IMG/VR virus record: IMGVR_UViG_3300042731_009830
Location: 1-43,915 of that record
Strand: one strand, 5' to 3'
Length of the DNA: 43,915 nucleotides
Origin: a virus
The notes under the pieces were generated by a model. The model was given only the letters and a program-made list of their open reading frames with translations. It was not told where the DNA came from and searched no databases. Shown in pieces: positions 1 to 43,915 of this stretch (positions are counted from its first letter, which is position 1; each line of letters starts with the position of its first letter). A program made the position numbers and the translations under genes.

Positions 1-160
1 AACTCGATGATAGTGAACTGGAGCTCGACGAACTTGACAAACTTGACGAACTCGATGATAGTGAACTGGAACTTGACGAACTTGACGAACTCGATGATAG
101 TGAACTGGAGCTCGACGAACTTGACGATGACGATGAACTGCTCGACGAGCTGCTCAAACC
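1..160 (-). repeat. Tandem repeat encoding poly-Ser (left half)
   Basis: Imperfect tandem units of about 39 bp, each containing GATGATAGTGAACTGGA and CTCGACGAACTTGAC, encode SSSLSSSSS-type sequence on the minus strand. The first 26 bases of the window equal the last 26 bases, so the contig probably breaks inside this repeat. Confidence 0.85.
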
Positions 161-901
161 CCCAACCTGTGCTAAAAGTGGTATAATCGGAGTCTGTTCG
201 AACATACAGAACGGATCGTAGAAAAGATGAGTTCTCTCCTTTTCCGAAAGAGCTCTATTGTAAATCAGAGTATGAGAAAAAAGGCCGTTTGCACTGTCTC
301 GACAAAGCCACATGTTCATAGCAGGTGTAGTTTCGATAACACCTGTCCATGCAGCCGTTGTCTCGCCAACTATTAAATCAACATAAACTTTAATTGTACT
401 GCCGTCGATTAAACCTATTACCTGATGCCATCCGGGATTATTCAAAAGGTAGTCTTGGCCTTTTGCTAAGTGCAATGTTTGGGCGTCATTTTTTATAGAA
501 AAATTTATATTCTCAGTCACGTCCGTCCCGAGATAGCCAACATCATTCCCGATCCCCTGCCAGTACATTATGTCGAGATTGGCCGTGATAGTATTATTCG
601 CTACAAAAATCCAGGAAACAATGCTGCATTGGGAATAACCCTTTAATATTTTAGGATTACCCATATCAATATATGCTGCATTGCTCCCCTCTAAGGCATG
701 TCCGTACTTACCCGGTGTCCAGAGTATATCGGTGCTCGATGAGAATGTGCCGTGATTATTATAGCCGCTCAAGTCAAAGATTTTGTTTCCTGCCCCCTCA
801 TTCATAAGCCAACACCCAACAAGACCTTTGGCTAAAGGATGTCTTTTTAACAAATGAGCCTCACCGGGTCTCGGTTTAATTTTTTTTCGCCATTCGAACA
901 T
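1..901 (-). CDS. LamG-domain protein with poly-Ser linker (3' part beyond window)
   Basis: The frame is open from an ATG at 901, directly after the stop of the preceding gene, and runs off the left edge without a stop. The protein begins MFEWRKKIKPRPGEAHLL. Residues about 25-235 look like a LamG/concanavalin-A-like fold: GLVGCWLMNEGAG, then DLSGYNNHGTF, then ALEGSNAAYIDMG, and a C-terminal LIYNRALSEKE motif typical of the last strands. From about residue 248 it becomes almost pure serine with a few leucines. LamG domains bind carbohydrate or protein, so a virion adhesin or decoration role is likely. The same frame re-enters at the right end of the window (43915 down to 43336), so the complete protein is probably about 484 residues. 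Last gene of the tail/sugar transcription unit. Confidence 0.8.
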   Translation of the reverse strand, partial: MFEWRKKIKPRPGEAHLLKRHPLAKGLVGCWLMNEGAGNKIFDLSGYNNHGTFSSSTDILWTPGKYGHALEGSNAAYIDMGNPKILKGYSQCSIVSWIFVANNTITANLDIMYWQGIGNDVGYLGTDVTENINFSIKNDAQTLHLAKGQDYLLNNPGWHQVIGLIDGSTIKVYVDLIVGETTAAWTGVIETTPAMNMWLCRDSANGLFSHTLIYNRALSEKERTHLFYDPFCMFEQTPIIPLLAQVGGLSSSSSSSSSSSSSSSSSSLSSSSSSSSSSSSLSSSSSSLSSSSSSSSLSSS

Positions 902-1342: not shown

Positions 1343-1620
1343 TAAGGCGTCCTCCCTTCAATATTAGTATTTAATGCGGTTTCTAAATCAGCCACTTCTT
1401 GCGCTATTCCTTCTTCTGCCAGTTGCTGATTATATTTCACTAAAAATTTCTCCCATACAATATTAGCCAATTCTGCTTTCTTAGGACCGGTTGACATATC
1501 CCCGTTTTCTACAATGACCGTATGTGTCGGCCCTGCGTCAACAGATATATCGGCCTTAATATTTATAATCTTGTTCGGTATATCTAATACCGTTATTGTC
1601 GAATTGCAATTAACTGCCAT
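1342..1620 (-). CDS. Hypothetical small protein
   Basis: 92 residues, not recognised. A good ribosome site (AGGAG, 7 nt before ATG) supports the start at 1620. This start lies inside the end of the preceding glycosyltransferase gene in another frame (28-nt overlap). The first half is beta-strand-like (ITVLDIPNKIINIKADISV) and the second half helical (WEKFLVKYNQQLAEEG). It is probably co-translated with the next gene, whose start overlaps its stop. Confidence 0.6.
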   Translation of the reverse strand: MAVNCNSTITVLDIPNKIINIKADISVDAGPTHTVIVENGDMSTGPKKAELANIVWEKFLVKYNQQLAEEGIAQEVADLETALNTNIEGRTP

Positions 1621-3491
1621 TTTTGATCTCCTTTAATTAATTTAAACCATTTTTCCGCTATAAAACTGTTTTTCGCTCGCTCTCTGGCAGCATTTCCCTT
1701 TCGCCTCAAGGTTTCATAATCGATCGAATGAAACAAGTCGATCACATCTTTATGTTTATCTATCAGCCATCCGGTTTCGGTTGTCACCCTGTCCTTTGCC
1801 CCATCTTTATTTTCCGCTATAACAGGAAGTCCCGCCGCCATTGCCTCTACGATTACACGCGGCCCCTGATCTGTATATCCTTCAGGTAAAAGGTACCAGA
1901 AAAGATTTCCTTTACTCAGAAATTCAGCTACTTTTTCAATATTCGATTGATACGGTGAAATACTGATATTCCGCTCGATCCTCATCCAGCTTGCCGCCGG
2001 CATAAAGAAAAAATGTGCCGGACTCTTTCTGCATATATCAATAATATCCGCCGGGAACTTTTTATCGCCCTGACTGCTGTGCCTTACTATTCTCAGCGAC
2101 TGATTATAATCCGGCCGGACATTTAGAAACGGTTCGATATTCACCGCAGGCGCTAATACATCCGTATCTGCATTCGTTATTTTTTTCAGAAATCCGTCAC
2201 GAAGATCGCTCGATAAAAATAGATATTTGTCCCAGCCCTTGGTCCAATCCACCTGACCGGCCTTACCGATTTTATAAGTCAGGGCCATCACTTTTCGTCG
2301 GGCCTTTATATTAGTAAATACTGCAAATTGCGGTTGGTCAAAATTAAATACCATATCCGAGGCATAAAGTAGAAAGATATCGCATTCTCTGGTGACATGA
2401 TTACTTACTATAGTACCTGCAGGCATTGCCTGCCTGAACTCTTCGCACATAGGTCCCGGCGTCGATATCTCCGCCCGCCATTTATTATCTGTGAATAATT
2501 TTGCAATCTCTATTACCGATCTTTCGGCCCCCCCCAGACATTTGGCATTGGTCACAATCCTTATAAGCGGTTTTTTCTTTGCAATTTCTATCCGCTCAGG
2601 TCTCTGCAGAACTCCCCCCTCGTAATAGCTGTTAACCGCGTCCACGACATGCGGGACATTAATCATATCCATACAACGGGCGATCTCTTCCCGCTCGTTA
2701 AATTCGTTTTTAGTAACCTGAACTTTGTTTTTACATGCCGTTATGGAATTTTTCCAGCAGGCCAATTTTGAACAGCACGGCAGGCATCCTATCCGGTCGA
2801 TAAATCTATGATTCTGATAGCGCTCGAACGTAGATGGCTCACGTCCTCCTGCCAATACTACACACGGCTTATCGAACGCCGCCGCTACATGCATAAGCGA
2901 ACTAACGAGACTGATGCACCCATCGGCATTATATACCAGACTGAACAGCTCTCTTATTTTGGTCTTGCCGATGAGATCTATTACATTCGGCCCTTTAAGC
3001 CTGTAATCATTATCAGCCTCCAGCCCCACCTGGACAAAAGTAATATCATATAATCTTTCCACAACGGCCTGGAATCTCTGGTTATACCACCGCTTCGCCG
3101 AAAACGGCCCCGTATCGGTATTAATCACCCAGTAATTTCCATCTATAAATTTATTGTTTTTTTCCTCTTCACTTAAAAATATCTCCGGCTTATATGGCCC
3201 TTGTTTTATCTGCTCACCGAGGTTCTCCTGCAGTGAAATCCTGAACGCATCGGTTATATGCAGTCCGTTAGTTTTCGATCCGTGCGTTACCTTTGCCGGC
3301 CCGATATTAAAGCTTTTGTCCGGCTTTGTCATATTATGCGATATATGCGGATTGTTGTACCAGATCTCGGGCCCTATCGATTCGACCGTTATCTCCCAGT
3401 CCGGATGTGCCGCCTTAAGATCGCGGACCACCGGCGTAAACATTAGCCGGTCCCCCAGCATCGACTGCGTATTTATAAGCTTTACCTTCAT
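1593..3491 (-). CDS. Two-domain glycosyltransferase (GT9-like plus GT4-like)
   Basis: 632 residues. The start is the ATG at 3491 (MKVKLINTQSMLGD) behind AAGGAAG and coupled to the previous stop as TAATG; a longer upstream reading into the neighbour is not needed. Residues about 1-300 resemble GT9 (heptosyltransferase-like) enzymes: DLIGKTKIRELFSLV followed by SSLMHVAAAFDKPCVVLAGG. A Cys-rich stretch follows (GCLPCCSKLACW). Residues about 325-630 resemble a GT4/group-1 transferase: NAKCLGGAERSVIEIAKLF near its start and GPRVIVEAMAAGLPVIAENK near its end. One chain may therefore add two sugars or pair a catalytic with a substrate-binding domain. The sugar and acceptor are unknown; the cluster suggests a virion or cell-surface glycan. 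Confidence 0.8.
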   Translation of the reverse strand: MKVKLINTQSMLGDRLMFTPVVRDLKAAHPDWEITVESIGPEIWYNNPHISHNMTKPDKSFNIGPAKVTHGSKTNGLHITDAFRISLQENLGEQIKQGPYKPEIFLSEEEKNNKFIDGNYWVINTDTGPFSAKRWYNQRFQAVVERLYDITFVQVGLEADNDYRLKGPNVIDLIGKTKIRELFSLVYNADGCISLVSSLMHVAAAFDKPCVVLAGGREPSTFERYQNHRFIDRIGCLPCCSKLACWKNSITACKNKVQVTKNEFNEREEIARCMDMINVPHVVDAVNSYYEGGVLQRPERIEIAKKKPLIRIVTNAKCLGGAERSVIEIAKLFTDNKWRAEISTPGPMCEEFRQAMPAGTIVSNHVTRECDIFLLYASDMVFNFDQPQFAVFTNIKARRKVMALTYKIGKAGQVDWTKGWDKYLFLSSDLRDGFLKKITNADTDVLAPAVNIEPFLNVRPDYNQSLRIVRHSSQGDKKFPADIIDICRKSPAHFFFMPAASWMRIERNISISPYQSNIEKVAEFLSKGNLFWYLLPEGYTDQGPRVIVEAMAAGLPVIAENKDGAKDRVTTETGWLIDKHKDVIDLFHSIDYETLRRKGNAARERAKNSFIAEKWFKLIKGDQKWQLIAIRQ

Positions 3492-4210
3492 TAAACAACT
3501 TCCTTGTATTTTTTTACCGGCGAAATTAATTCTATTTTTTTGATAATTATTTCCGGCTCCGGCTGCCAGTCGCTCGCCGTTATCCATCCGACCCTTACCT
3601 CGAACGGGTTCCAAGTCATTTTATAGCGTTTTTCCAGCGTTTCCCCGAAATAGGTTCGATCATCCCCCCAGACCACCAAATTCGCCCCGCACGCAGCCGC
3701 CAGGTGCATAATTCCGCTCGACACACCTATTACCACCCTTGAAGCGGAGATCGTGTCCATAAGCCGCTGTAATGCAATTCCACGCAGGTCCAGATACCCC
3801 GGCTGATGATAATCATTTTTCGAGCCGATAAACGCGCAGCTCATACCCAGGGCGTTTATCATCTTTACCAGCTCAGGCCATTGCCGGTAATTTATACTGC
3901 TTTTTCTCCGGATCCCCCGGGCATGAATTAATATATCCGGCGCATAATCCGCTTTTTTGGCGTCTCCGTATCTATAATATATGCCATCGTGCCGGTATTG
4001 TTTCGGATAATCCAGCGACCTGCCGTTTGAATTATTAACCCTGAATTCCGTAGCGAAATCGGCATACAGGGCCTGCATCCCTTCGAAGCTCGTCGCCATT
4101 ACCTGATCATACCCCTGGGCCATCCTGCGGCATAAAGGAACCCAGCTCATGACCTCCCAGCCCAGCTCACCGGTCCATTCGGGCAGTATTAACTTTTTTC
4201 CCGTTCCCAT
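3491..4210 (-). CDS. GT9-like glycosyltransferase
   Basis: About 239 residues from the ATG at 4210 (MGTGKKLILPEWTGELG), which has GGAG about 5-6 nt upstream; an ATG at 4228 adds six residues but has a poorer site. The C-terminal half carries the GT9-like nucleotide-sugar region LMDTISASRVVIGVSSGIMH followed by LAAACGANLVVWGD, matching the second Rossmann domain of heptosyltransferase-type GT-B enzymes. The N-terminal EWTGELGWEVMSWVP loop corresponds to the GxxG region of the first domain. It is shorter than usual family members (about 320-350), so it may be a minimal enzyme. It overlaps the upstream gene by 22 nt. Confidence 0.75.
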   Translation of the reverse strand: MGTGKKLILPEWTGELGWEVMSWVPLCRRMAQGYDQVMATSFEGMQALYADFATEFRVNNSNGRSLDYPKQYRHDGIYYRYGDAKKADYAPDILIHARGIRRKSSINYRQWPELVKMINALGMSCAFIGSKNDYHQPGYLDLRGIALQRLMDTISASRVVIGVSSGIMHLAAACGANLVVWGDDRTYFGETLEKRYKMTWNPFEVRVGWITASDWQPEPEIIIKKIELISPVKKYKEVV

Positions 4211-4836
4211 AGCTCTCCGATCTCCCATGAATATCTGTTCGGTTTTCCCAGATTCGCCGCATATTCACCCTGCAGATGTGTCAGTCCCAGAAACCATCGC
4301 CACCATTCGTAATCTTTGATCGTTTTATGTTTAATCCCGATTTCCGTAATAATACTTTTATAATGCGATTCCGCCGGCTTGGCGGGTAATTCGATAAGGT
4401 CATAAAGGCAGAATGCCTTACGCAGTAATTTTGCCGGCCCGAAGATCAGGCGGGTATTATTATCGATAACATCCACACGGTGATGAGCCAGCTCGCTATA
4501 TAATTTTTGAATATTACGCCACCGCCATACCGGTTCGTCGAAACCAAGCTTCAGGAAAAAGCAATCCGGCCAGTGCTTGACGATAATATCCAGCCCGTTC
4601 TTGATACATATCAGTTCGCCCCTGGCATGTCCCAAGGTACCCGCCGGCACTCCGGTAGTAACACAACTCTCGAATCGCTCAAATATGTCCGGCGGTATCT
4701 GTTCGGTATCTATATCATCGTAGGAAAGTATTAGCGGTCCCGGGTAATTCTCCAGGGAAAGCAGAACCGACCGCCACCATTTCTGCTGTTTCGGATGTGC
4801 TGTTAATAATATAGGCGTTTTTTCCAAAATACTCAT
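4189..4836 (-). CDS. Putative glycosyltransferase-like protein
   Basis: 215 residues, only weakly recognisable. The N-terminus (MSILEKTPILLTAHPKQQKW) and the stretch TLGHARGELICIKNGLDI followed by WPDCFFLKLGFDEPVWRW look like a GT-A-type sugar transferase, where a GxxxG/A helix precedes the metal-binding strand. A classical DxD is not evident, though GFDEP occupies the expected place. The start ATGA overlaps the upstream stop. It sits between two clearer transferase genes; assignment rests mainly on context. Confidence 0.55.
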   Translation of the reverse strand: MSILEKTPILLTAHPKQQKWWRSVLLSLENYPGPLILSYDDIDTEQIPPDIFERFESCVTTGVPAGTLGHARGELICIKNGLDIIVKHWPDCFFLKLGFDEPVWRWRNIQKLYSELAHHRVDVIDNNTRLIFGPAKLLRKAFCLYDLIELPAKPAESHYKSIITEIGIKHKTIKDYEWWRWFLGLTHLQGEYAANLGKPNRYSWEIGELWEREKS

Positions 4837-5522
4837 CCGAGATCCTTTACCGCTTTGTTGTAAGGTTTTCTCTTTTCGCCGGTGACATTACCATCGGCAT
4901 GTATAAGCACATGCCAGTCGTGGATCGTCTGCCACTTGCATAATCCGTTGAACCGCTGGGGCAGAAACGGCAGCCCGAACTCGGCGGCGGCGAACATAAA
5001 CGCCGCCTCGTCGCCGACCACCTCGCCCTTATCCGAATGTTGGTCCATAACATTCTGCCACTCGGTCCATACAGGCATGAATCGCTGTCGCATTTCCGCA
5101 TCGAGCACAACAATTCCGGAGTTCCGCCAAGATGGGCAGTAAAAATTTCGCCATGTCTTCATTATAAAATCATAAGCCCCCGGATCACCGTCGCACACCG
5201 TATGATTGCGTATAAAACCCTGTGTATGTTTTATCCGCTCTTTCGGACAGTAGTAAAGAATATCCGAACCGCCCTGACAGTCGTCCGCCTCCCAGTCTCC
5301 TTTACAGGTCATTACACAGTCCGAATCCAGATATACGTACCGGTCCGCCGGCGGCAGTTTGCCGCTTAGCAGTTTCACCTTGTACCGGTTCCATTTCTCT
5401 GTTTTGGGAATATCGTAAAGTTGTATTTTTCGCCCGTGCTTGCGTCCGGAGGCCAGAAGTATTTCAGCCTCTTTCCGATATACCGGATTGTCATCGACCG
5501 CCGTAAAGAAATATATATTCAC
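4833..5522 (-). CDS. GT-A (GT8-like) glycosyltransferase
   Basis: 229 residues. It begins MNIYFFTAVDDNPVYRKEAE, typical of GT8-type enzymes. YVYLDSDCVM at about residues 62-71 supplies the DxD metal/nucleotide-sugar motif. WRNSGIVVLD is the usual acceptor-side NSG motif, and LPFLPQRFNGLCKW with a later HxDG-like IHADGN matches the end of the catalytic domain. It is expected to transfer a sugar from a nucleotide-sugar donor in the cytoplasm. The gene is 9 nt after the epimerase gene and overlaps the next by ATGA. Confidence 0.75.
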   Translation of the reverse strand: MNIYFFTAVDDNPVYRKEAEILLASGRKHGRKIQLYDIPKTEKWNRYKVKLLSGKLPPADRYVYLDSDCVMTCKGDWEADDCQGGSDILYYCPKERIKHTQGFIRNHTVCDGDPGAYDFIMKTWRNFYCPSWRNSGIVVLDAEMRQRFMPVWTEWQNVMDQHSDKGEVVGDEAAFMFAAAEFGLPFLPQRFNGLCKWQTIHDWHVLIHADGNVTGEKRKPYNKAVKDLG

Positions 5523-5531
5523 ATTTCTTCC

Positions 5532-6413
5532 TTAATTATAATTTTGCAGATTTTCCCTGTAATATCGAATTGTCTTTTCAAGCCCTTCGGCGAGTGGCAC
5601 CATCTCCGACAGCTTATAGTCCAGTGGTATAAGCGTCGCTGTATTCGCAATTACCACGCTTTCCGCAATCTCGCCCGGGCGCATTGGCTCACGCCTAATT
5701 TCCGAGCTCGATCCGGCCAACTTGATCACCTTTTTTGCTATATGATTAATCGAGGTCCTCCGCCCGCTGCCCGCCTCGAACACCTTATCGTATACGTTAT
5801 GCTCGCAAAGCAGTGCCCTGCACAATATCTCCGCCAGGTCTTCGGCATAAATGAAGTCCATTATCTGTTCGCCCGACCCATAAACAGTAAGCGGCTCGTT
5901 TTTCAGGGCCGGTATAACGAAATTCGGTATGACTTTACGGACCGGCTTATGCTTCTGGTACGGCCCGTAGGCGTTCAGGCCACGTACCACCGCTATCTTT
6001 GTCCCGTGCTCGGCGTTATACATTAGCGCGAATTTTTCAGCGGCCGTCTTGGTGATGGAGTATGTATTGAGCATGAAATGATTACCTACCGCTATATAGC
6101 AGCATCGCTTACCGAACTTCCTGCAGGCCTCGAATACGTAAAGTGAGCCGGTAATATTGACCGCAGCCGGCTTTTCCGGCTCATCTATAGTTTCTGATGT
6201 CCCCAGTAATCCCGCCAGGTGCATCACCGCATCACTGTTCTTTATCAAAGCGGTAATCTTTATCTTGTCCTGAATCATACCCGGGCAGTGAATAACTCCG
6301 TCGAATTGCGGCGATACATTATCGTATACAACCACCTTATGCCCGGCCCTTATGAGTTTTTGACATACGTATCTGCCGATAAAGCCGGCCCCGCCGGTAA
6401 CCACAATCTTCAT
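5532..6413 (-). CDS. NAD-dependent nucleotide-sugar epimerase/dehydratase
   Basis: 293 residues from the ATG at 6413, preceded by AAGGGAG at 5 nt; an upstream TTG would merely translate the ribosome site. Extended SDR family: TGGAGFIG at residues 6-13 binds NAD, HLAGLLGTSET follows, and YSITK near residue 117 is the catalytic YxxxK. The C-terminal part contains GLNAYGPYQKHKPVRKV, YGSGEQIMDFIYAEDLAE and EAGSGRRTSI, all characteristic of UDP-glucose 4-epimerase-like proteins. It likely makes the donor sugar for the transferases encoded just downstream. Exact substrate unknown. Confidence 0.85.
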   Translation of the reverse strand: MKIVVTGGAGFIGRYVCQKLIRAGHKVVVYDNVSPQFDGVIHCPGMIQDKIKITALIKNSDAVMHLAGLLGTSETIDEPEKPAAVNITGSLYVFEACRKFGKRCCYIAVGNHFMLNTYSITKTAAEKFALMYNAEHGTKIAVVRGLNAYGPYQKHKPVRKVIPNFVIPALKNEPLTVYGSGEQIMDFIYAEDLAEILCRALLCEHNVYDKVFEAGSGRRTSINHIAKKVIKLAGSSSEIRREPMRPGEIAESVVIANTATLIPLDYKLSEMVPLAEGLEKTIRYYRENLQNYN

Positions 6414-6434
6414 AATGACTCCCTTCAAATTCTT

Positions 6435-7031
6435 TTAACCTTTTTTTAAAAACGCTATCGCGCCGCCGTTTTTAGAATACGACCTGTCGATCTCTTCGAG
6501 TTTATCGCCGTCCGTTTCGAGTATGATATCCACAGCCCTGCGAACCAGTCCCTTATATCCCGGCCTGCCGTAGCCGGCACGTCGTTTGTCCTCTGCGCAG
6601 TTGCCCTCGTAATCGTGGAATATTATGATCCCGCCCGCCCGGACCTTCGGCTCGAAATAATGATAATCCGCCAGGGCCCACCTTACCTCGTGATATCCGT
6701 CAATAAACAATATATCCAGATTATCCGGCACAACTCCATCCGGTACCCAGGGACTGGCGAGCTTGAACAGGCTGTAATAATTTTCAAGATCATACAGCTT
6801 CATATTATCCACCATTTTTTGTTTCGGATTAGGCTCTATGCAGTACAGATGTCCCTTCCTTTCCTTGGCCTTTGCCCCCAATATGACCGACGAGCCGCCG
6901 TCCGCAGAGCCGATCTCTAATATATATGCCGCACCTATCTTGTCGCAGCACCTCTGCAGCAGCTCCAGGTCCTCGACAGTTATCCTGCTCTTACTTTGCA
7001 ATACGACTTTACCCAGATCTATCAGGTCCAT
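6435..7031 (-). CDS. Class I SAM methyltransferase (Methyltransf_24-like), copy 1
   Basis: 198 residues. ILEIGSADGGSSVILG is motif I for S-adenosylmethionine binding, LYCIEPNPKQK is the acidic second strand, and LDILFIDGYHEVRWALADYH with GGIIIFHDYEG is the family's IDGxH...HDY signature. In many gene clusters such enzymes O-methylate sugars. With the epimerase and transferases downstream, a sugar or glycan substrate is likely, but nothing in the sequence proves it. It shares the domain with the adjacent gene but little sequence identity. Confidence 0.8.
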   Translation of the reverse strand: MDLIDLGKVVLQSKSRITVEDLELLQRCCDKIGAAYILEIGSADGGSSVILGAKAKERKGHLYCIEPNPKQKMVDNMKLYDLENYYSLFKLASPWVPDGVVPDNLDILFIDGYHEVRWALADYHYFEPKVRAGGIIIFHDYEGNCAEDKRRAGYGRPGYKGLVRRAVDIILETDGDKLEEIDRSYSKNGGAIAFLKKG

Positions 7032-7046
7032 TATGCCACCTCGTAT

Positions 7047-7631
7047 TTATTTCTTGATAATCAGAAATTCGCCCCTCAAAGAGGCGATACTGTGATAATT
7101 CCTTATGTCCTTTTCGTTCGTTTTTACGAATCCGTCGACCGCCCTTTTAACACCGGCTATATACGTATAGTCATCCACCAGAATAATCCCTCCGCTTACG
7201 CAGGCCTCGAAGGCCAGGTTGATATCGTGCAGGCATCCGGCCTCTGTATGATCGCCGTCCACGTGCACGAAATCGTAAGGCCCCGCCAGCCGGTCCAGCT
7301 TCTGCGTATCGGCGTGGACCAGATTTATATTAGCGCCGGGGAAATTCTGCCTGAGCATAAGATTGACATGGGCGAAGGTATCCGTCTTTACTCCACCGTG
7401 CCCTCCGTTTACGATATCGTAACCGGTATAATCGGCCCGGGCCGAGGCACATAAAAAACTGTACGCCGAATATCCCCACCGTACACCGATTTCGCAGATG
7501 ACCAGCGGCTCGAACAGATTCGCGATCATGTACTTTTGAAAATAATAATCGTAAAAACGCCTCCTGCGAAACTGCTCGTCGCCGGCGTGAACAATATTGT
7601 CCGCCCACCATAGATAATCAGGAAATTCCAT
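7047..7631 (-). CDS. Class I SAM methyltransferase (Methyltransf_24-like), copy 2
   Basis: 194 residues. ICEIGVRWGYSAYSFL is the SAM-binding motif, YTGYDIVNGG the second strand, and YDFVHVDGDHTEAGCLHDIN followed by GGIILVDDYTY the VDGxH...DDY signature. Two consecutive methyltransferases of the same fold but different sequence suggest two methylated positions or two substrates. It starts 3 nt after the small membrane-protein gene, in the same unit as the tail fibre. Confidence 0.8.
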   Translation of the reverse strand: MEFPDYLWWADNIVHAGDEQFRRRRFYDYYFQKYMIANLFEPLVICEIGVRWGYSAYSFLCASARADYTGYDIVNGGHGGVKTDTFAHVNLMLRQNFPGANINLVHADTQKLDRLAGPYDFVHVDGDHTEAGCLHDINLAFEACVSGGIILVDDYTYIAGVKRAVDGFVKTNEKDIRNYHSIASLRGEFLIIKK

Positions 7632-7883: not shown

Positions 7884-9752
7884 CTAAGCTGTAACGTCCA
7901 GCTTGCATTCTATTATTGCTGCAATCCGGCACCGCAGGTCCGTATTGAATCTTATCGCCTTCCATCCGGTCCCGGTTATGTCCGAGGTAATATCGATATC
8001 GAGCTGGTCCGTCGTATAATTGCCCGATGCCCCTCCGAAGCCAGAGCCGTTGTTTATATTGAAATTGACCGTCGGCGAATTGCTCTCCTCATGCAGACCG
8101 TAAGTTATGCCATGCGAGTGCGGTGCAATAGTTACATTATGATAGTGACCGTTCATAACATGAGTATGCCCATTGGCAGTATGCGTGTGAGAATTAATTC
8201 CATGCGAATGACTTGATTCGGTATGTGTATGACTGCCTCCCGTAGTGCCGTGACCATGTGAGCCCGGCACACTGCTGATGTAAGTGCTTTGTATTGATAT
8301 TGACGGAGTACTTGAACCTGTCCCGGAACCGGAGCCGGTATTAGTATTAGACGTTCCGCCTGAATTTATAGTGACCGTGGCACTTTGTGTAACAGCGTAT
8401 GAAGTGTCGGTTGTAGGCGTAGAACCTCCGCCGCTCGCCGCCGCCGTAGAATAAGCCCTGTACGGCATTATCCGAAACGATAGCTTGACCGATATTATCG
8501 TGGTCATCTCCGATACGATCTTAAAAGGTATCTCAAATGGGTATGACGAATCCAGTGAATCGGCCCCGTTATATACGTAAGTCTGGCGGAGCTGGGCGTA
8601 TAAATCCGCTGTTATAGTCGCCGCCTGTATCAGCCTGGCATGTATGACCGGCAGTCCGTAGACCGGATGGGATGATCCTTCATCGTTTATGCACATCACC
8701 CACCCGTTAGAATTAAATACGTCATTCAGATCGTTCGTGTCCCTGAATATGGTCGTATAATTCGGGTCCCAGTAAATATACTTCTTGTCGGTGGCGCCGG
8801 CGGCAATGTTATATGTCACACCCTTATAGGTCAGCAGCCCCGCCGTCCAGTCTATAACGTTACCGGCCTCACTCGAAGAGCTGCTCGACGAAGAAGAAAA
8901 CGAGCTGGACGACGATGAGCTGGAGGACGATGAACTGGAAGATGATGAGCTGGAAGATGATGAGCTGGAAGATGATGAGCTGGAAGATGATGAACTGGAA
9001 GATGATGAACTGCTCGATAGCGACGAGCTGGAGCTGGAAAAAGATGAGCTGCTCGAAGAGCTGCTCGATGAAGACTGCGAGCTTGATGATGATGACTGCG
9101 ACGAGCTGCTCGATGAACTTGAAGATAGCGAGCTGGATGATGATGACTGGGACGAACTGCTCGATGACGATGAACTAAGTGACGATGACGACCAGGAAGA
9201 GCTGGAGGATGATGAGCTGGAAGATGATGAGCTGCTGGATGATGACTGCGAACTGGAGGATGATGAACTGGACGAAGAACTGCTGGAGCTGGAGGATGAT
9301 AATTCTCCGTAAACATCGAGAATAGGTAGATTAGCTTCGGAAGTGCCCCAACTCAAATAATTTGAGGCATGTTCGGTATCTACTACCTCTACCTTTACGT
9401 ACCGGCCTACTTTGTCGGTACTGTCTATTTCAACCCAGTTCGAATTATCCTGCCAGGTAGAAATGCCTGAGGCAACAGCAGCACCCCAGTCGCCGCCGAC
9501 AGTATTCGTCGTTGGATGTACGTAAATGTTTACATCGGTCGGGTCATAACCATCCCTTTCTGATCGACCTCTTATTTTCTGAACATTATATAATGCCCCC
9601 AAATCAAGAATAACCCAATGTGTTTCATCCGGTTCGTCCGTTCCGTCAAACCAATAATCAGTGCCGTCCAATGCTTCCTCAATAGTACGTAAACCATTAT
9701 CCCCGCAGTGGTCGTAATAATGTGAACTATTTATCCCTATCCAGTCAGCCAT
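7884..9752 (-). CDS. Tail fibre: discoidin-like head, poly-Ser stalk, His-rich tip
   Basis: 622 residues. Residues 1-150 resemble an F5/8 type C (discoidin-like) carbohydrate-binding domain: HWVILDLGALYNVQKIRGRS, GRYVKVEVVDTEHAS and a final ILDVYGE. Residues about 151-293 are nearly all serine with occasional Q, L, F and W. Residues about 295-450 are a tail-protein domain (DWTAGLLTYKGVTYNIAAG). Next comes a Gly/Ser linker, then about residues 500-560 with repeated His-x-His (GSHGHGTTGGSHTH, HSHGINSHTHTANGHTH). Such motifs coordinate metal ions in trimeric fibres like T4 gp12 and gp37. The gene follows the tail-tip gene, so it is the best receptor-binding candidate. Confidence 0.8.
   Translation of the reverse strand: MADWIGINSSHYYDHCGDNGLRTIEEALDGTDYWFDGTDEPDETHWVILDLGALYNVQKIRGRSERDGYDPTDVNIYVHPTTNTVGGDWGAAVASGISTWQDNSNWVEIDSTDKVGRYVKVEVVDTEHASNYLSWGTSEANLPILDVYGELSSSSSSSSSSSSSSSSSQSSSSSSSSSSSSSSSSSWSSSSLSSSSSSSSSQSSSSSSLSSSSSSSSSQSSSSSSQSSSSSSSSSSSFSSSSSSLSSSSSSSSSSSSSSSSSSSSSSSSSSSSSSSSSSSSSSSFSSSSSSSSSEAGNVIDWTAGLLTYKGVTYNIAAGATDKKYIYWDPNYTTIFRDTNDLNDVFNSNGWVMCINDEGSSHPVYGLPVIHARLIQAATITADLYAQLRQTYVYNGADSLDSSYPFEIPFKIVSEMTTIISVKLSFRIMPYRAYSTAAASGGGSTPTTDTSYAVTQSATVTINSGGTSNTNTGSGSGTGSSTPSISIQSTYISSVPGSHGHGTTGGSHTHTESSHSHGINSHTHTANGHTHVMNGHYHNVTIAPHSHGITYGLHEESNSPTVNFNINNGSGFGGASGNYTTDQLDIDITSDITGTGWKAIRFNTDLRCRIAAIIECKLDVTA
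8876..9302 (-). repeat. Poly-Ser coding repeat with 15-bp tandem units
   Basis: About 427 bp encode the poly-Ser stalk. Within it, 15-bp units of the type GATGATGAGCTGGAA repeat head to tail from about 8926 to 9012. Elsewhere the codons are mixed, so repeat expansion and selection for serine both seem to have shaped it. Confidence 0.85.
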
Positions 9753-9781
9753 TTGTTCTTCGTGTTCCTTTTGAAATTTAT

Positions 9782-9796
9782 CTGCCTGTCAGGCAG
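9782..9796. repeat. Perfect 7-bp palindrome after the tail-tip gene
   Basis: CTGCCTGTCAGGCAG lies immediately beside the stop codon of the tail-tip gene. There is no T-run, so it is more likely an mRNA-stability or REP-like element than an intrinsic terminator. Confidence 0.5.
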
Positions 9797-12214
9797 TTAT
9801 GAGCTGAAGATTATTCCCGTCGTGATGGGCGCATCTATATTCGGCAGGCCGAGCACCTCTTTAGGGTATTCGGCCCTCAAGTCCGCCAGTGTAATGGGCC
9901 TGGTCTGGTCCGTTACTACCGGCGGGGAGCTGTAGCCGGCCATAGGCAATACCGGCTCATCGTCATCCCCCGTATATATTTCATCGTGATATTCGCCCGC
10001 TATTATCGTATGGCTCAAGTCCGCCTTTTCAATAATGCCTATAATGCGGAACTTTTCTATCACCTTATCCGTCGGCCCGAACGCATAGACATCCTCCGCC
10101 GCCGGCCTGTATGTAAAGCTGCCCGATATAGTCACCTCCGCTGCGTCGACCGAAGCGACCGTATAGACCTTTACCTTCGTCGTTTCGCTTGCCTTATCGT
10201 AGCTGGTAATAATAAGCGAATCGCTGCCGGTAACTGTCGGCTCCCTGTCCAGTATCACCTTATTGGTCGCGGGAACCGAAACGATCCGCCCGTCCTTTTT
10301 CCACGGTGATACCACCGCTATCACCTCGCCCTTAAGGCATACGATGGCATCTATATCCGCATCGAATGTCACCGCCGATTTTATGTAGCGGTTCTTCGCC
10401 AGTTCGTAATAGGCATCCCGCCAGGCCTGCGACCTGCCGGCTATCCCGATTTTCTTGAGTGTGATTTTATTGTTAGGATTATTTATATCCGATGTATACA
10501 GCACCAGCGGCGACCGCTCGTAATCCTGATCGGCATCCAGGAAATGAGTCTCTATCTCCGAGGCCCTCTGGTCAAACGGCAGATAGTCTCTCCGGAACGT
10601 GCCCGGCTTTATATTGCCCGCGGTAAACAGCTGTACCGGATCGTCGGACCATGCCCTGTCGACTATCAGTTTATAATTGAGACCTACCGGCACCACCTCG
10701 CACCGGGCCATACGGCATACCTCGTTTACCGCATCCCATACCTTTATGCCTGCATCGAACAGGCCGTTGAACTCTATCCTCTTTTCCGTCCCGCCCTCGC
10801 CGTCCGGCACCATATCGTCGAACCACTCGGCGGCCAGATAATAATCGTTCAGATAGGGTGTCAGTCTCGACGGATTAACGCCATCGTATCTTTCGATTGC
10901 GTAAGGCGTCCCGTCACCGTCCCCGCTAATTACCGGCAGGGTAAGCAGGTCCCATATCACCCACGCCGGATTATTGTTATGCTGCAAATTCCAGCTCGTA
11001 CCGTTGAAGACGTTGATAATTCGTTCTTCCTGAATACATGAAATATTTATACTGCCAGATATTTGCTCGGTCGCCAGGGCTTCCACGCCCACCTGTGAAA
11101 GCCCCGGCCGGGTGAATGGTATATCGATGACCTCGCGGACCGCTACAATTCTCAGCTCATCCAGGTACCTCGCACCCTTGTCCGTTGTCGTCTTGGTGAC
11201 CCTGAATTCGTACCGCGTGCCGTAATCGATGGAAACCGGCGAGCCGCCGTCGTAGCTGCCGGATGCCGTATAGGTCTTTTTCTGAGGATTGGAATCCCCG
11301 TTTGTCAGCGTCGTATTGACCAGCGTCGACCATGCCCCAAGCCCCACCTCTGATATCTCTATCTTTACCCCCATCGTACTGCTCGAATAGCCGCCCGAAT
11401 CGTTGAGCCAGGCCAGTCTGTACTCGATGGTAATTTCCAGATCATCGTAATCGTTGGCCGCCGTAGTAAAGGTCTCGGCCCCTCCGTCATAAGTCACTTT
11501 GCGGTTCGGCCTGTATTCCGGGCGGGCCTGGTCCTGTATGGCCGCCTGGTCCATCAGTCCGCGCCGCTCGTAGGTAGTGACATTATCGAAATTACCCACC
11601 GGCTGGTCGTTAATGCGTATCGAGGCGGTTACTATCCCCTCGACCGGCCCCTCCGACAGGCCGGCTATCATAAATATCGTCTCATCCTCACCGTCCGCCA
11701 CCGTATAGCACGATACCAGATTGCCGTGATGCTTTACCTTTCCGTATCCCCTCGGCCTCACCAGTCCCTGCGCCTGCAGGGTATGCGGCTGCCAGCTAAA
11801 CGACTGCGACTGCGTTATCCCCTCCAGCTTCGGCGATTCGGGCTTCGGCCCCAGCATACTTATCAGATAGCCGGCCCCGACAGCAACTGCAATATTGACC
11901 GCAAGTGTCCATAATGCCGCCTGCCAGGTCGCCGCGCCGGTGGCTGTAACCAAAAGAGCGCCGATCCCCTGAACGATTCCCCACCTGGCGGCCGGGACCA
12001 TTATTATCTCATCACCTGCCGAGGCCCGGTAACTATCGAGTCTTTCCCCGCTCAATATCTCCTGATTTACCCTTACGATCAGGTCTTTTTCGCCTCGCAT
12101 GAACCTTTTCGCCAGTGTAGTTATCTTCTGGCCGTGCGGCGATATATGCTCTATCCGCCGCTTGCTGTTGTCCAGGGGGTGGTCTATAAGGATTAATCTT
12201 ATCGGCTCAGCCAT
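9797..12214 (-). CDS. Tail tip / host-specificity protein (lambda J-like)
   Basis: 805 residues. Residues 1-80 look like a small beta-grasp domain (SPHGQKITTLAKRFMRGEKD, GDEIIMVPA). Residues about 82-122 are hydrophobic (GIGALLVTATGAATW, LAVNIAVAVGAGYLISMLGP), as in lambda gpI and the N-termini of J-like proteins. The rest matches phage tail-component proteins: QAQGLVRPRGYGKVKHHGN, GLSEGPVEGI, and fibronectin-like and tail-hub regions (WIIWDLL-type NPAWVIWDLLTLP). It forms the tail tip that contacts the host. It overlaps the NlpC gene by 8 nt. An I-J fusion is my reading of the N-terminus. Confidence 0.85.
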   Translation of the reverse strand: MAEPIRLILIDHPLDNSKRRIEHISPHGQKITTLAKRFMRGEKDLIVRVNQEILSGERLDSYRASAGDEIIMVPAARWGIVQGIGALLVTATGAATWQAALWTLAVNIAVAVGAGYLISMLGPKPESPKLEGITQSQSFSWQPHTLQAQGLVRPRGYGKVKHHGNLVSCYTVADGEDETIFMIAGLSEGPVEGIVTASIRINDQPVGNFDNVTTYERRGLMDQAAIQDQARPEYRPNRKVTYDGGAETFTTAANDYDDLEITIEYRLAWLNDSGGYSSSTMGVKIEISEVGLGAWSTLVNTTLTNGDSNPQKKTYTASGSYDGGSPVSIDYGTRYEFRVTKTTTDKGARYLDELRIVAVREVIDIPFTRPGLSQVGVEALATEQISGSINISCIQEERIINVFNGTSWNLQHNNNPAWVIWDLLTLPVISGDGDGTPYAIERYDGVNPSRLTPYLNDYYLAAEWFDDMVPDGEGGTEKRIEFNGLFDAGIKVWDAVNEVCRMARCEVVPVGLNYKLIVDRAWSDDPVQLFTAGNIKPGTFRRDYLPFDQRASEIETHFLDADQDYERSPLVLYTSDINNPNNKITLKKIGIAGRSQAWRDAYYELAKNRYIKSAVTFDADIDAIVCLKGEVIAVVSPWKKDGRIVSVPATNKVILDREPTVTGSDSLIITSYDKASETTKVKVYTVASVDAAEVTISGSFTYRPAAEDVYAFGPTDKVIEKFRIIGIIEKADLSHTIIAGEYHDEIYTGDDDEPVLPMAGYSSPPVVTDQTRPITLADLRAEYPKEVLGLPNIDAPITTGIIFSS

Positions 12215-13251: not shown

Positions 13252-13752
13252 CTAAGCACTGCTTGAGCTCGAAGATGAAGACGAAAACGAGCTGCTGGAA
13301 GATTTGGAAGACGAGCTGCTCGACGATGAAGACGAAGACGAGCTGCTCGATGAGCTTGACAGTGACGAGCTTTCCGATTCGACCGTATCCACTTGCCGAA
13401 GTATCAGTTTGGTCTGATACTTATTGGGGTTTTTGGGCTCAATATTGAATTTGAGCGGCAGGCATCCTTCGGCGAAGCATACGAAAATCGTCCTGCCCTC
13501 TTTCCGGTTATACCACCAGAACTTGTCCGCCCCGTAGTTTACATTTTCCTGCAGTGTCTCCAGTGCCGCTCGATCCGTTTCCGTCAGCACCCGCAATGTA
13601 CATTCGTACTGGTCAGGTACCCAGGTCGCCCGCGAGCGGCGGACCTGATAACCGGCCGTAAAATCGGACCGGTAAGTAGGATCGAAGGCCTTACCCTTCG
13701 AATAACCCTCGATAACCATTCTTCCTTCGAGCTGCGGAAATCTGTACCACAT
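13252..13752 (-). CDS. Minor tail protein (lambda M-like) with poly-Ser C-terminal tail
   Basis: 166 residues. Residues 1-120 look like the phage minor tail M family: MWYRFPQLEGRMVIEGYSKG, WVPDQYECTLRVLTETDRA and KFWWYNRKEGRTIFVCFAEG. Residues about 122-166 are poly-Ser with single L, K and F interruptions and a final Ala. The gene follows the tape measure, as M does in lambda. The tail is longer (about 45 residues) than the 17-Ser tails of the decoration and tube proteins. Confidence 0.75.
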   Translation of the reverse strand: MWYRFPQLEGRMVIEGYSKGKAFDPTYRSDFTAGYQVRRSRATWVPDQYECTLRVLTETDRAALETLQENVNYGADKFWWYNRKEGRTIFVCFAEGCLPLKFNIEPKNPNKYQTKLILRQVDTVESESSSLSSSSSSSSSSSSSSSSSSKSSSSSFSSSSSSSSSA

Positions 13753-16353: not shown

Positions 16354-16782
16354 TTACGAGCTTGACGAGCTGCTGGAAGATGAGCTGCTTGAAGATGAGC
16401 TGGACGAAGGATAGTACGGCTTTCCCGTACACTTTATCGTAATCGGTGACATCATCGTATCGCCCATCGGGACGCCCAGATTGGTGCTCTTGAGATAGCC
16501 CGGCACAATTAGCGAATTACTGCCTCTGGTTATCGTGAACTGCTGGGTGGTCGGCGATTTGACTTCATCGAACAGCGTCTTGAACAGGGTCGCATCGTAT
16601 TTAAGGTCCGCCGTTATCTCACCGGCATCCTTCAGGCCGGGCTCGAATTCGCGAAACAGGTCAGCAGAATCGAAATCGGTAATCTCGACATCGTCGTTAA
16701 TGATCCCTGACCAGTCGAGATTAGTCAGCTTGCCTATCGTCCCGATCGATGCTCCGGATAATGTAGTTCCATGTCCAATCAT
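16354..16782 (-). CDS. Major tail tube protein with 17-Ser C-terminal tail
   Basis: 142 residues from the ATG at 16782 (MIGHGTTLSGASIGTIG); a GTG at 16797 would add five residues encoded by a hairpin. Features of tail tube proteins: NDDVEITDFDSADLFREFEP, ADLKYDATLFKTLFDEV and VPGYLKSTNLGVPMGDTMMS. After KPYYP the protein ends in exactly 17 consecutive serines and TAA. The tube subunit is present in many copies (about 100-200 in related phages), so the tail surface would carry a serine brush. Position before the G/T chaperones matches lambda V. Confidence 0.85.
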   Translation of the reverse strand: MIGHGTTLSGASIGTIGKLTNLDWSGIINDDVEITDFDSADLFREFEPGLKDAGEITADLKYDATLFKTLFDEVKSPTTQQFTITRGSNSLIVPGYLKSTNLGVPMGDTMMSPITIKCTGKPYYPSSSSSSSSSSSSSSSSS

Positions 16783-16818
16783 GTGCCTTAAAGGCACGTA
16801 AGTTTGTGCCTACGTGCC
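16783..16818 (-). promoter_or_regulatory. Overlapping alternative hairpins at the tail tube start
   Basis: GTGCCTTAAAGGCAC (16783-16797) abuts the ATG and encloses the only AAGG ribosome-site-like sequence. A second stem pairs GGCACGTA (16793-16800) with TACGTGCC (16811-16818). The two share bases and cannot form together, so the pair could tune translation of this highly expressed gene. Confidence 0.45.
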
Positions 16819-18006: not shown

Positions 18007-18336
18007 TTACGCTAATTTTAGTTTTAACATCGCGGCATCATGGTGTATTATCTCGATGACACTCATTCGGACCGGCCGTTTGTTCACCCGCTGGCTGATT
18101 TCCACCTTATCGCCGCCGGTATTAATCTCCGTCGATGCTATACCCGAGCTCGAATCGTTTTTAACCAGTATCTCGACCGGCTCGCGGCCATCCTCGATGG
18201 CCTGGTGATCTACAACAGCCTTTATCCGCCGGGCCGGTCCCGACGCAGGAAAATAGGTCACATAGCACGTACCCGGCAGTAAAAAGAACGAATCGGCCGC
18301 CTGCTTCAGAGTTCTCTCAAAACTATCATTTACCAT
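18007..18336 (-). CDS. Head-tail joining protein (FII-like)
   Basis: About 109 residues from the ATG at 18336 (MVNDSFERTLKQAADSFF); an earlier GTG would translate a hairpin. The core VEILVKNDSSSGIASTEINT then GGDKVEISQRVNKRPV resembles small head-tail connector proteins. The same core recurs in the C-terminal part of the LamG/poly-Ser protein (43336-43689). Located directly after the capsid gene, as FI/FII are in lambda. Confidence 0.7.
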   Translation of the reverse strand: MVNDSFERTLKQAADSFFLLPGTCYVTYFPASGPARRIKAVVDHQAIEDGREPVEILVKNDSSSGIASTEINTGGDKVEISQRVNKRPVRMSVIEIIHHDAAMLKLKLA

Positions 18337-18355
18337 AAAGCATCCGAAAACCAAG

Positions 18356-18370
18356 GTGCCGGACCGGCAC
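18356..18370. repeat. GTGCC hairpin, copy 2
   Basis: GTGCCGGACCGGCAC between the capsid and connector genes: 6-bp stem, 3-nt loop. Same 15-nt architecture as 16783-16797, 19383-19397 and 23247-23261. Confidence 0.7.
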
Positions 18371-18378
18371 ATTGACAC

Positions 18379-19332
18379 TTACGCATCGATCTTCATTAAA
18401 TGCCCGAAAAATGGATCAAATATTTTTTCAGTCGAAAAGTCGCGTACCCTGAAGATGTCCGATTCCGTCTGCTCTTCGCGATACTGCACAACCCTGCTGA
18501 GCCCGTTCTCGACCCCGGTCCATTCCGGCTGTCTGCCGAGTCCGGGGGATGCCATACTGCCCTGCGCTTTCTTGAATATCAGGGCGTAATCATCGCCCCA
18601 GATATCGGATGCCGAGAAACTCTGGCCCTCTTTGGCCGAATCTTCTACCTGGCCGCCCACTATCAGGTTGGATAGGCCGAATAACGCACCCAAATTATCT
18701 TCTATCATTTTTCTTGAAATTGTTGTGGCTCCCGGAAATCTTGCAAGGATGACGGTATTTTTGCGGATATTACACATAGCCGCTTCACCTATAACCATCG
18801 AATCCGGTCTGACACCTGTATTGAGCCGCACCTTTTCCATAGCCGCTTCAACCTGTGATATGATATTCGTAGTTGTGGTGTCCCACGGCGTTCCGGAATT
18901 ATCGGTATAAAGCGCCGCTGTTGAAGTATCCCATGTAGTCGTATTGAATACGGCCGCTTTTACTCGCTTTTCCCTGGCCAGGTACATTAGCTGCGTGATA
19001 AGCTGGGAGGTCTCGTACTCGGCATCGTAATCGCTGGCGTAATTGCCCCTGTCCTCGTCGGTAAGCTGGCCCTCGAGCCCGCGGTCCTTGCAGACATAAT
19101 CCATGTCCTCACTTGTCAGGACCACCCTGTTAAACGTCCCGCCGTTCGCGTGGTTCACATTAGGTACCTTGCGGTTCTCTCTGGTAATTACCGACAGAGT
19201 CGCCGCCTTTTTCTCAACCGGCAGCGGAGGCAGTACCTGGTCGGCGATAAAGCCGTCCGTCGAAGGATCGTATTCGTGAAAGGCGACGCCCAGGTCGAGC
19301 CTGGGAACCGCTCTTGTCGCTTGCTGAATCAT
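18379..19332 (-). CDS. Major capsid protein (lambda E-like)
   Basis: 317 residues, behind a good GGGAG site. Typical capsid E-family features are DGFIADQVLPPLPVEKKAAT near the N-terminus, VVLTSEDMDYVCKDRGLEGQ, NTGVRPDSMVIGEAAMCNIR in the middle and WGDDYALIFKKAQGSMASPG near the C-terminus. It follows the decoration protein gene as E follows D in lambda. Unlike its neighbour it has no poly-Ser tail. Confidence 0.85.
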   Translation of the reverse strand: MIQQATRAVPRLDLGVAFHEYDPSTDGFIADQVLPPLPVEKKAATLSVITRENRKVPNVNHANGGTFNRVVLTSEDMDYVCKDRGLEGQLTDEDRGNYASDYDAEYETSQLITQLMYLAREKRVKAAVFNTTTWDTSTAALYTDNSGTPWDTTTTNIISQVEAAMEKVRLNTGVRPDSMVIGEAAMCNIRKNTVILARFPGATTISRKMIEDNLGALFGLSNLIVGGQVEDSAKEGQSFSASDIWGDDYALIFKKAQGSMASPGLGRQPEWTGVENGLSRVVQYREEQTESDIFRVRDFSTEKIFDPFFGHLMKIDA

Positions 19333-19437: not shown

Positions 19438-19854
19438 TTACGAGCTGCTCGATGATGAAGATGAAGACGAGCTGCTCGATGAGCTTGACGACTGGTTATT
19501 CAGATTGAGCTGTGGAATAACCTCGATCACATCGTTATTGGCCGTCGCGGCATCCAGTGCCGTGCCCATCTTTATTGTCCCCGAGGACGCCACTTTGCCA
19601 TCGTCTGCCGCATATACCGGTGCCCCTGAACTGATCGCCCCGGAGGCCACCATCTTGCTTGTCCCCTCGTTATAGCTGCGAACGCACGCCCTTGCATCCT
19701 CCGACTGGTCCACCGCCGCCTGCACAACGCCTATCCCGAAGTCCACCGAATCGGCGAGCCATACCGTTCTGTTTGCCGTCAGCTTGACCCTCCGGAACGC
19801 CGACAGGTCCTCACCGGCGGTAAGGTTCATCGGCGAGTTCATTTGTGTTGTCAT
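19438..19854 (-). CDS. Capsid decoration/cement protein with 17-Ser C-terminal tail
   Basis: 138 residues, start behind AAAGGA. DUF2190-type cement protein: NLTAGEDLSAFRRVKLTANR, GTSKMVASGAISSGAPVYAA, DDGKVASSG and NDVIEVIPQL. Such proteins sit on the outside of the capsid in hundreds of copies. After LNLNNQ it ends in exactly 17 serines and TAA. The codons differ from those of the tail-tube tail, so the shared length is at protein level. Positioned as lambda D. Confidence 0.85.
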   Translation of the reverse strand: MTTQMNSPMNLTAGEDLSAFRRVKLTANRTVWLADSVDFGIGVVQAAVDQSEDARACVRSYNEGTSKMVASGAISSGAPVYAADDGKVASSGTIKMGTALDAATANNDVIEVIPQLNLNNQSSSSSSSSSSSSSSSSS

Positions 19855-35192: not shown

Positions 35193-35411
35193 TTAGTAAT
35201 CCTCCCCGGTATCAATCAGATCGCACTGGCACAGATGATACGGCTGCTGGCAATTCGGGCAGATATGCGCATCGTCGAAATTATCGTCCGCCGGCTCAAG
35301 CAACGTTTCGAGCAGCTCGTCGTCGTCGGGATCAAAAAAGCCATTCCGCTTGTCCGGCTCCGGCTCCGGCTCACCGTATAATTGTTCGTAAGTTAAAGGT
35401 TCATCTGCCAT
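35193..35411 (-). CDS. Small acidic protein with zinc-knuckle cysteines
   Basis: 72 residues: MADEPLTYEQLYGEPEPEPD, DDDELLETLLEPADDNFDD, ICPNCQQPYHLCQCDLIDTG. Very acidic N-terminus and a CxxC...CxC end. Possibly a DNA-mimic-like or protein-binding factor; speculative. Confidence 0.5.
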   Translation of the reverse strand: MADEPLTYEQLYGEPEPEPDKRNGFFDPDDDELLETLLEPADDNFDDAHICPNCQQPYHLCQCDLIDTGEDY

Positions 35412-43335: not shown

Positions 43336-43915
43336 TTATTGACATCGAAGGTGCAGCAGGGCCTTTTCCTGACCTATTATTTTTATAATTCGGACTTTTC
43401 TAACAGCCAAACCATATCTTAAAGGCAGCTCTACTTTATCACCTCCGGTATCCACTTCCGCCGAAGATATCCCGCTGATCAAATTATTTTTTACGAAAAT
43501 ATCTATTACAGGCCTTCTACTGCCGATCAATGTCCCTATACTGTCCGGCCCGAGAAATTCCAAAGTCGCCCTGATTGATCTACTGCCTCCACTTCGCGGG
43601 TAATAAGTAATCGTATCGTAAGAAAGACCGTCAAACGTCGAATCTATCGCCATCATCAATGCCCGGTCCGCCGCATTCGGGCTGCACATCCAGGATGAGC
43701 TGGATGACGATGAGGTTGAACTTGTCGATGATGACGAGCTGCTCGATGATGAAAAAGACGAAGATGATGAGGACTGTGACGAGCTCGAAGAGCTGCTGGA
43801 TGATGAGCTCTGCGAACTGGAGCTGCTCGAAGAGCTGCTTAATGATGACGAACTCGATGATAGTGAACTGGAGCTCGACGAACTTGACGAACTCGATGAT
43901 AGTGAACTGGAGCTC
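43336..43915 (-). CDS. C-terminal part of LamG/poly-Ser protein: connector-like domain
   Basis: The frame is open from the right window edge through poly-Ser (43690-43915) into about 117 residues ending at 43336. The final domain has PVIDIFVKNNLISGISSAEV then DTGGDKVELPLRYGLAVRKV, homologous to the head-tail joining protein at 18007-18336 (xVKNxxxSGIxSxExxTGGDKVE). If the window is circular this joins in frame with the LamG part at 901-1. An internal ATG (43689) is not needed. The connector-like end may anchor the LamG part to the virion; misassembly in the repeat is the alternative. Confidence 0.65.
   Translation of the reverse strand, partial: SSSSLSSSSSSSSSSSSLSSSSSSLSSSSSSSSSQSSSSSSSSSSSQSSSSSSFSSSSSSSSSTSSTSSSSSSSWMCSPNAADRALMMAIDSTFDGLSYDTITYYPRSGGSRSIRATLEFLGPDSIGTLIGSRRPVIDIFVKNNLISGISSAEVDTGGDKVELPLRYGLAVRKVRIIKIIGQEKALLHLRCQ
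43690..43915 (-). repeat. Poly-Ser coding repeat (right half)
   Basis: About 75 codons, nearly all serine with a few Q, L, F and T. The last 26 bases equal the first 26 of the window and keep the same reading frame. Confidence 0.85.

Follow-up and report, generated by a model that had tools for sequence, protein, structure and literature searches.

Runs of serine on the virion proteins of an uncultured phage and its relatives are a coordinated, switchable trait: at least five proteins either all carry them or all lack them, apart from one mixed case. We infer that these tails probably act as O-glycan acceptors for a phage-encoded sugar cassette, which would give the virion a coat of sugar. 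The phage is IMG/VR record IMGVR_UViG_3300042731_009830, and the window is the whole 43,915-nt stretch that was analysed.

Serine-tract proteins in the window

At least five virion proteins were found to have Ser tracts: the cement, tube, gpM-position, fibre-like and LamG-like proteins. Their genes are listed below with the major capsid gene.

1-901, minus strand: LamG-like half of a gene that spans the record ends (weak PF13385 match), with a poly-Ser linker; continues at 43889-43336
7884-9752, minus strand: tail fibre-like protein (weak F5/8-type match, PF22633)
13252-13752, minus strand: tail protein, flanked by the tape measure and a gpL-like gene (lambda gpM position)
16354-16797, minus strand: tail tube protein (phrog_158), with a 17-Ser C-terminal tail at 16357-16407
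18379-19332, minus strand: major capsid protein (phrog_1005), no tail; phylogenetic anchor
19438-19854, minus strand: cement (decoration) protein, 138 aa (PF09956)
19441-19491, minus strand: Ser tail of the cement protein, within its gene
43336-43914, minus strand: other half of the LamG-like gene, poly-Ser followed by a C-terminal domain like ORF 18007-18378

The sequence-only reading that preceded this analysis had the cement protein ending in 17 serines and a stop, and this was confirmed: read along the minus strand, 19438-19494 is CAG followed by 17 Ser codons and TAA (Q, S17, stop), and the protein ends in ...VIEVIPQLNLNNQ+S17. Because serine makes up only 5.6% of residues in the window genome once the tracts are excluded, 17 in succession are not a chance run. 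The protein matched the PF09956 Phage_cement_2 profile (E 6e-8; 33.4 bits vs a curated cut-off of 24) as well as phrog_673, while a sequence comparison with solved structures gave no useful match. In its AlphaFold model, pLDDT exceeds 90 over much of the core and the Ser tail is predicted to be disordered. Foldseek identified a capsid-decoration fold, with matches to the HFTV1, phi29 gp8.5 and TW1 capsid proteins. In phi29 gp8.5, a fibre lies C-terminal to this domain, and by analogy the cement C-terminus likely faces outward. The core profile and folds are common to the window cement and to PF09956, the phi29 gp8.5 base, HFTV1 and TW1 proteins, whereas the poly-Ser tail stands where proteins of that kind either end without extension or have a folded domain.

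All Ser tracts in the window lie within the virion gene block or in virion-type genes. The tail of the gpM-position protein consists of runs of 18 and 9 Ser, broken by K and F, and its gpL-like neighbour matches PF05100. The tracts of the fibre-like protein are central, and its runs of at least 7 add up to 111 Ser. A 7-Ser run at 35308-35328 on the plus strand was rejected as a feature, being antisense to an acidic stretch of a minus-strand ORF. No phage tRNA-Ser that might support the tracts was found.

A 26-bp terminal direct repeat (1-26 and 43890-43915) falls within the poly-Ser tract of the LamG-like gene. With the repeat removed, 901-1 and 43889-43336 form one frame encoding LamG, poly-Ser and the C-terminal domain; the record is therefore probably a circularly closed genome of ~43.89 kb, the repeat copy number at the join being uncertain. 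In one relative (G018), the LamG-like gene is intact as a single ORF (8881-10488). The C-terminal domain (43336-43700) resembles the 123-aa protein at 18007-18378 that adjoins the capsid gene, and this duplicated domain is likewise present in G018 and G022.

Concerted gain and loss across relatives

Searches with the capsid protein yielded ~100 related loci, 37 of them Ser-tailed and 65 tail-less; the tube, used as a query, returned a single locus only. The cements of these relatives end in one of three ways: bare, with an additional folded domain, or with a Ser tail. Thirty records combine a Ser-tailed cement with a complete tube gene, and in every one of them both proteins are tailed; tail-less relatives have a Ser tail on neither. 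The partial exception, G028, has the cassette, a tailed tube and a tailed gpM-position protein, yet its cement is tail-less with a folded extra domain. In L048, whose contig is too short to reveal a cassette, the cement (1889-2371) and the incomplete tube gene both end in mucin-like (SSSP)n instead of pure Ser. Capsid trees place at least four gains or losses of tails, three of which are forced by strong branches; the tail-less G007/G034 are nested within tailed phages on such branches.

Many tailed phages (L057, L059, L060, L087, L088, L090, G002, G005) encode a pair of cement paralogues that differ in the Ser tail, short in one (6-16) and long in the other (about 25-96). A folded C-terminal cement domain of ~120-260 aa replaces the Ser tail in L044, L046, L047, L049, L052, G004, G007 and G028, which are tail-less phages plus one tailed.

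The sugar cassette and competing readings

The cassette spans 1593-7631 in the window and comprises seven genes:

1593-3491, minus strand: GT9-GT4 double glycosyltransferase (PF01075 and PF00534), putative O-glycosyltransferase acting on Ser; homology places its ATG start at 3491
3491-4228, minus strand: second GT9 glycosyltransferase (PF01075), conserved in the cassette
4189-4836, minus strand: cassette gene, no family given, found in G001 and G024
4833-5522, minus strand: GT8-like cassette gene, DSD motif by inspection only and no Pfam match
5532-6428, minus strand: NAD-dependent sugar epimerase/dehydratase (PF01370, E 2e-40)
6435-7031, minus strand: Methyltransf_24 methyltransferase (PF13578)
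7047-7631, minus strand: Methyltransf_24 methyltransferase (PF13578)

Each of the seven has a counterpart, 93-97% identical, in the nearest relative, G001. Of the contigs that reach 20 kb, 8/11 tailed and 0/17 tail-less ones have the GT9-GT4 gene (Fisher 5e-5). The three tailed contigs that lack it are G025 and G030, which stop inside or before the cassette, and G031, which ends less than 1 kb from its tail-tip gene. For nearly complete contigs (at least 36 kb), the counts are 5/5 and 0/5. After correction for relatedness, three independent contrasts on strong branches point in the same direction (p 0.25), which is supportive, though not decisive alone. Sugar genes of other kinds do occur in tail-less phages, all without Ser tails: single-domain GT9 and GT2 genes in G009 and G048, and one methyltransferase in G047. 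The sequence-only reading had suggested a shared modifying system for unrelated virion proteins, and the joint gain and loss of cement and tube tails with the sugar cassette bears this out. It had also held that relatives keeping the sugar genes and losing the tail would speak against the idea; we observed the opposite, as all records found to carry GT9-GT4 have Ser-tract proteins. Tailed and tail-less phages differ in the tail module too, and tails and cassette may therefore simply be inherited together.

An independent test used the GT9 enzyme, not the capsid protein, as search bait. All new fusion-bearing contigs recovered in this way have Ser tracts. A further 14 distant single-domain GT9 relatives lie in phages with no detected homologue of the window capsid protein, and 9 of these 14 have Ser/Thr/SSSP tract proteins within 10 kb; for IMG/VR loci drawn at random, the figure is 3 of 56 (p 5e-6; an opposite-strand match in L205 was left out of the count). 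The average random locus is shorter, which a per-base binomial test allows for (p 1e-4). One distant relative, on a 224-kb phage contig (L213), is accompanied by a protein with a Thr run tens of residues long (1120-2907). No cement or GT9-GT4 homologue was found in cultured phages by tblastn, and the GT9-GT4 fusion was not found among 50,697 phage records.

A rival reading is that the tails are unmodified, serving as adhesive linkers or as brushes that are flexible and hydrophilic, while the co-travelling sugar genes act on phage DNA or on the host surface (superinfection exclusion or receptor change). Secreted enzymes of bacteria (Saccharophagus, Teredinibacter) are known to use poly-Ser as a linker without modification, and the fibre and LamG tracts do lie between domains, as linkers would. 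Phage glycosyltransferases that alter host serotype or DNA, described in PMC12619734, would suit this reading as well. However, the cement, tube and gpM-position tracts are terminal, with nothing linked; the GT9 family accompanies Ser/Thr tracts in unrelated phages too; and a bare linker need not come and go with a sugar cassette. We consider it unlikely that the tails are unmodified.

Modification by host enzymes, through glycosylation or phosphorylation with the phage cassette aimed elsewhere, appears less probable still and would come as a surprise. In its favour, genes for ADP-heptose synthesis were not recognised in the phage set, which implies that at least some sugar donors would have to be host-derived. 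Against it, we saw no clear native poly-Ser proteins in the putative host genome, hence no evident host enzyme with this substrate, and the association with the cassette is left unexplained. That genome is a Phycisphaerae MAG which contains the tailed relative L114, a weak host assignment made by binning. It has 16-codon Ser-type runs on the phage contig and in one other place, likely an antisense acidic tract; poly-Ser as a host habit was not seen in this MAG. Across 298 genomes of the Phycisphaerae class, the fusion enzyme was found only in the L114-bearing MAG (0/297 others), and one of the other 297 has a distant GT9 relative.

At the DNA level, cement and tube tails differ in codon order, as the sequence-only reading had noted, and their likeness is no better than that of shuffles (permutation p 0.34). 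Its claim that the DNA was not copied holds for cement and tube and fails for cement and the gpM-position gene, whose tracts are identical at 48/50 nt (permutation p 0.0005). The G001 cement tail is the window cement tail with an exact 27-bp duplication; the 17 shared tail codons are all identical, while 31/121 core codons differ. Tail pairs within a genome were more alike than shuffles in 13/70 cases, vs 7/80 between genomes. All six Ser codons are mixed in the tracts, and only 105 of ~2100 residues are not Ser. Slippage and occasional copying therefore alter the DNA, yet Ser is what remains encoded, and, judged by their codons, the tracts are features of the protein. The duplication, the copied tract and the within-genome excess could all come from neutral expansion of DNA repeats that slippage and recombination carried from gene to gene, but this already disfavoured reading is very hard to sustain: slippage accounts for length change and not for retention, the residues remain Ser though the codons are scrambled, and the tracts are restricted to virion proteins, exactly C-terminal to folded cores, and jointly absent in tail-less relatives.

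A physical requirement for 17 residues, also raised earlier, did not survive, as cement tails vary from 6 to 96 Ser and tube tails from 11 to 21, with 26 and 18 in G001; a fixed length was thereby rejected. Cement and tube tails are equally long in 2 of the 30 records with both, where 0.87 are expected, and the shared length in the window is a coincidence.

Proposed modification and known systems

Under the preferred reading, glycosylation by the phage cassette, the disordered Ser tails would be acceptor tags on surface-exposed cement, tube, gpM-position, fibre and LamG-like proteins. A GT9-type enzyme with a four-Cys insert would add the first sugar to Ser; GT4, the second GT9 and the GT8-like enzymes would lengthen the glycan; the epimerase would provide nucleotide sugar; and the two methyltransferases would cap the chain. 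The outcome would be a sugar-coated particle, which might benefit from shielding, receptor mimicry or stability. The tails, their joint occurrence, their association with the cassette and the GT9 fold and motif are shown, while we infer the action on Ser, the sugar involved, the sequence of the steps and the gain for the phage. More tentatively, the four-Cys GT9 enzymes of uncultured phages, on contigs of up to 430 kb, could be a distinct family that forms with poly-Ser a transferable tag system and glycosylates Ser/Thr/SSSP tracts wherever they are attached; any virion protein could then become a glycoprotein by acquiring the tag.

Four Cys residues are invariant in 12/12 aligned GT9 members, after the nucleotide-binding region, in the pattern G-x-L-x-C...[AG]CW...C...C. 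In the AlphaFold model of GT9-GT4 (mean pLDDT 76, pTM 0.55), one half matched GT4 enzymes, and the best matches of the other included TibC (4rap, E 5.5e-8) and WaaF (1psw, E 1.1e-7), which together with PF01075 indicates the GT9-like catalytic fold of the bacterial autotransporter heptosyltransferases (BAHT). Between TibC and WaaF, an LPS heptosyltransferase, the fold search does not discriminate, and the sequence lies closer to WaaF. When profiles were used to align the cysteine insert with the TibC iron finger, TibC was matched at E 0.0046 by the full fusion profile, not by the GT9-only profile. TibC is a Ser-specific autotransporter heptosyltransferase with a GT9-like fold and four essential iron-binding cysteines, and it modifies Ser acceptors at many positions (PMC4358343). 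The fold and four conserved cysteines are thus common to TibC/AAH and the phage enzyme, although the phage Cys, candidate metal ligands, are spaced differently from the TibC iron finger (C339/342/358/370). The phage enzyme also begins directly with the GT9 Rossmann lobe, is fused to GT4 and sits with virion proteins, whereas TibC/AAH enzymes are not so fused and sit with autotransporters. Since the N-terminal beta-barrel of TibC was not seen in the phage enzyme, we do not file this enzyme as a BAHT member; it may work like one.

Sugar-coated phage particles have so far, to our knowledge, been shown only in a few mycobacteriophages, and a literature search for poly-Ser phage tails found no papers. 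If the proposed modification is true, virion glycosylation would be a modular system in uncultured phages and not a mycobacteriophage curiosity, and a Ser run would be a simple sequence code, readable from metagenomes, with an identifiable enzyme. Tag and GT9 would make a testable two-part system and possibly a protein-tagging tool.

The mycobacteriophages Che8 and Rita (Freeman et al. 2023, Cell Host Microbe 31:1216) encode glycosyltransferases and carry glycans on capsid and tail tube subunits, at the C-terminus, according to PMC12619734 and PMC11256854. The window similarly encodes its own glycosyltransferases (two GT9-domain genes and a GT4 domain) and has candidate C-terminal Ser/Thr acceptors on shell and tube, the Ser17 tails of cement and tube, which would be the glycan sites. 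The Che8 capsid ends in VVFNKTGS and its major tail protein in EQYSDGS, without Ser runs, whereas the window tags are homopolymeric and mark no fewer than four proteins besides the cement, with a GT9-GT4 fusion as the core enzyme. The mycobacteriophage glycans are on the capsid subunit, while the window major capsid protein itself has no Ser tail.
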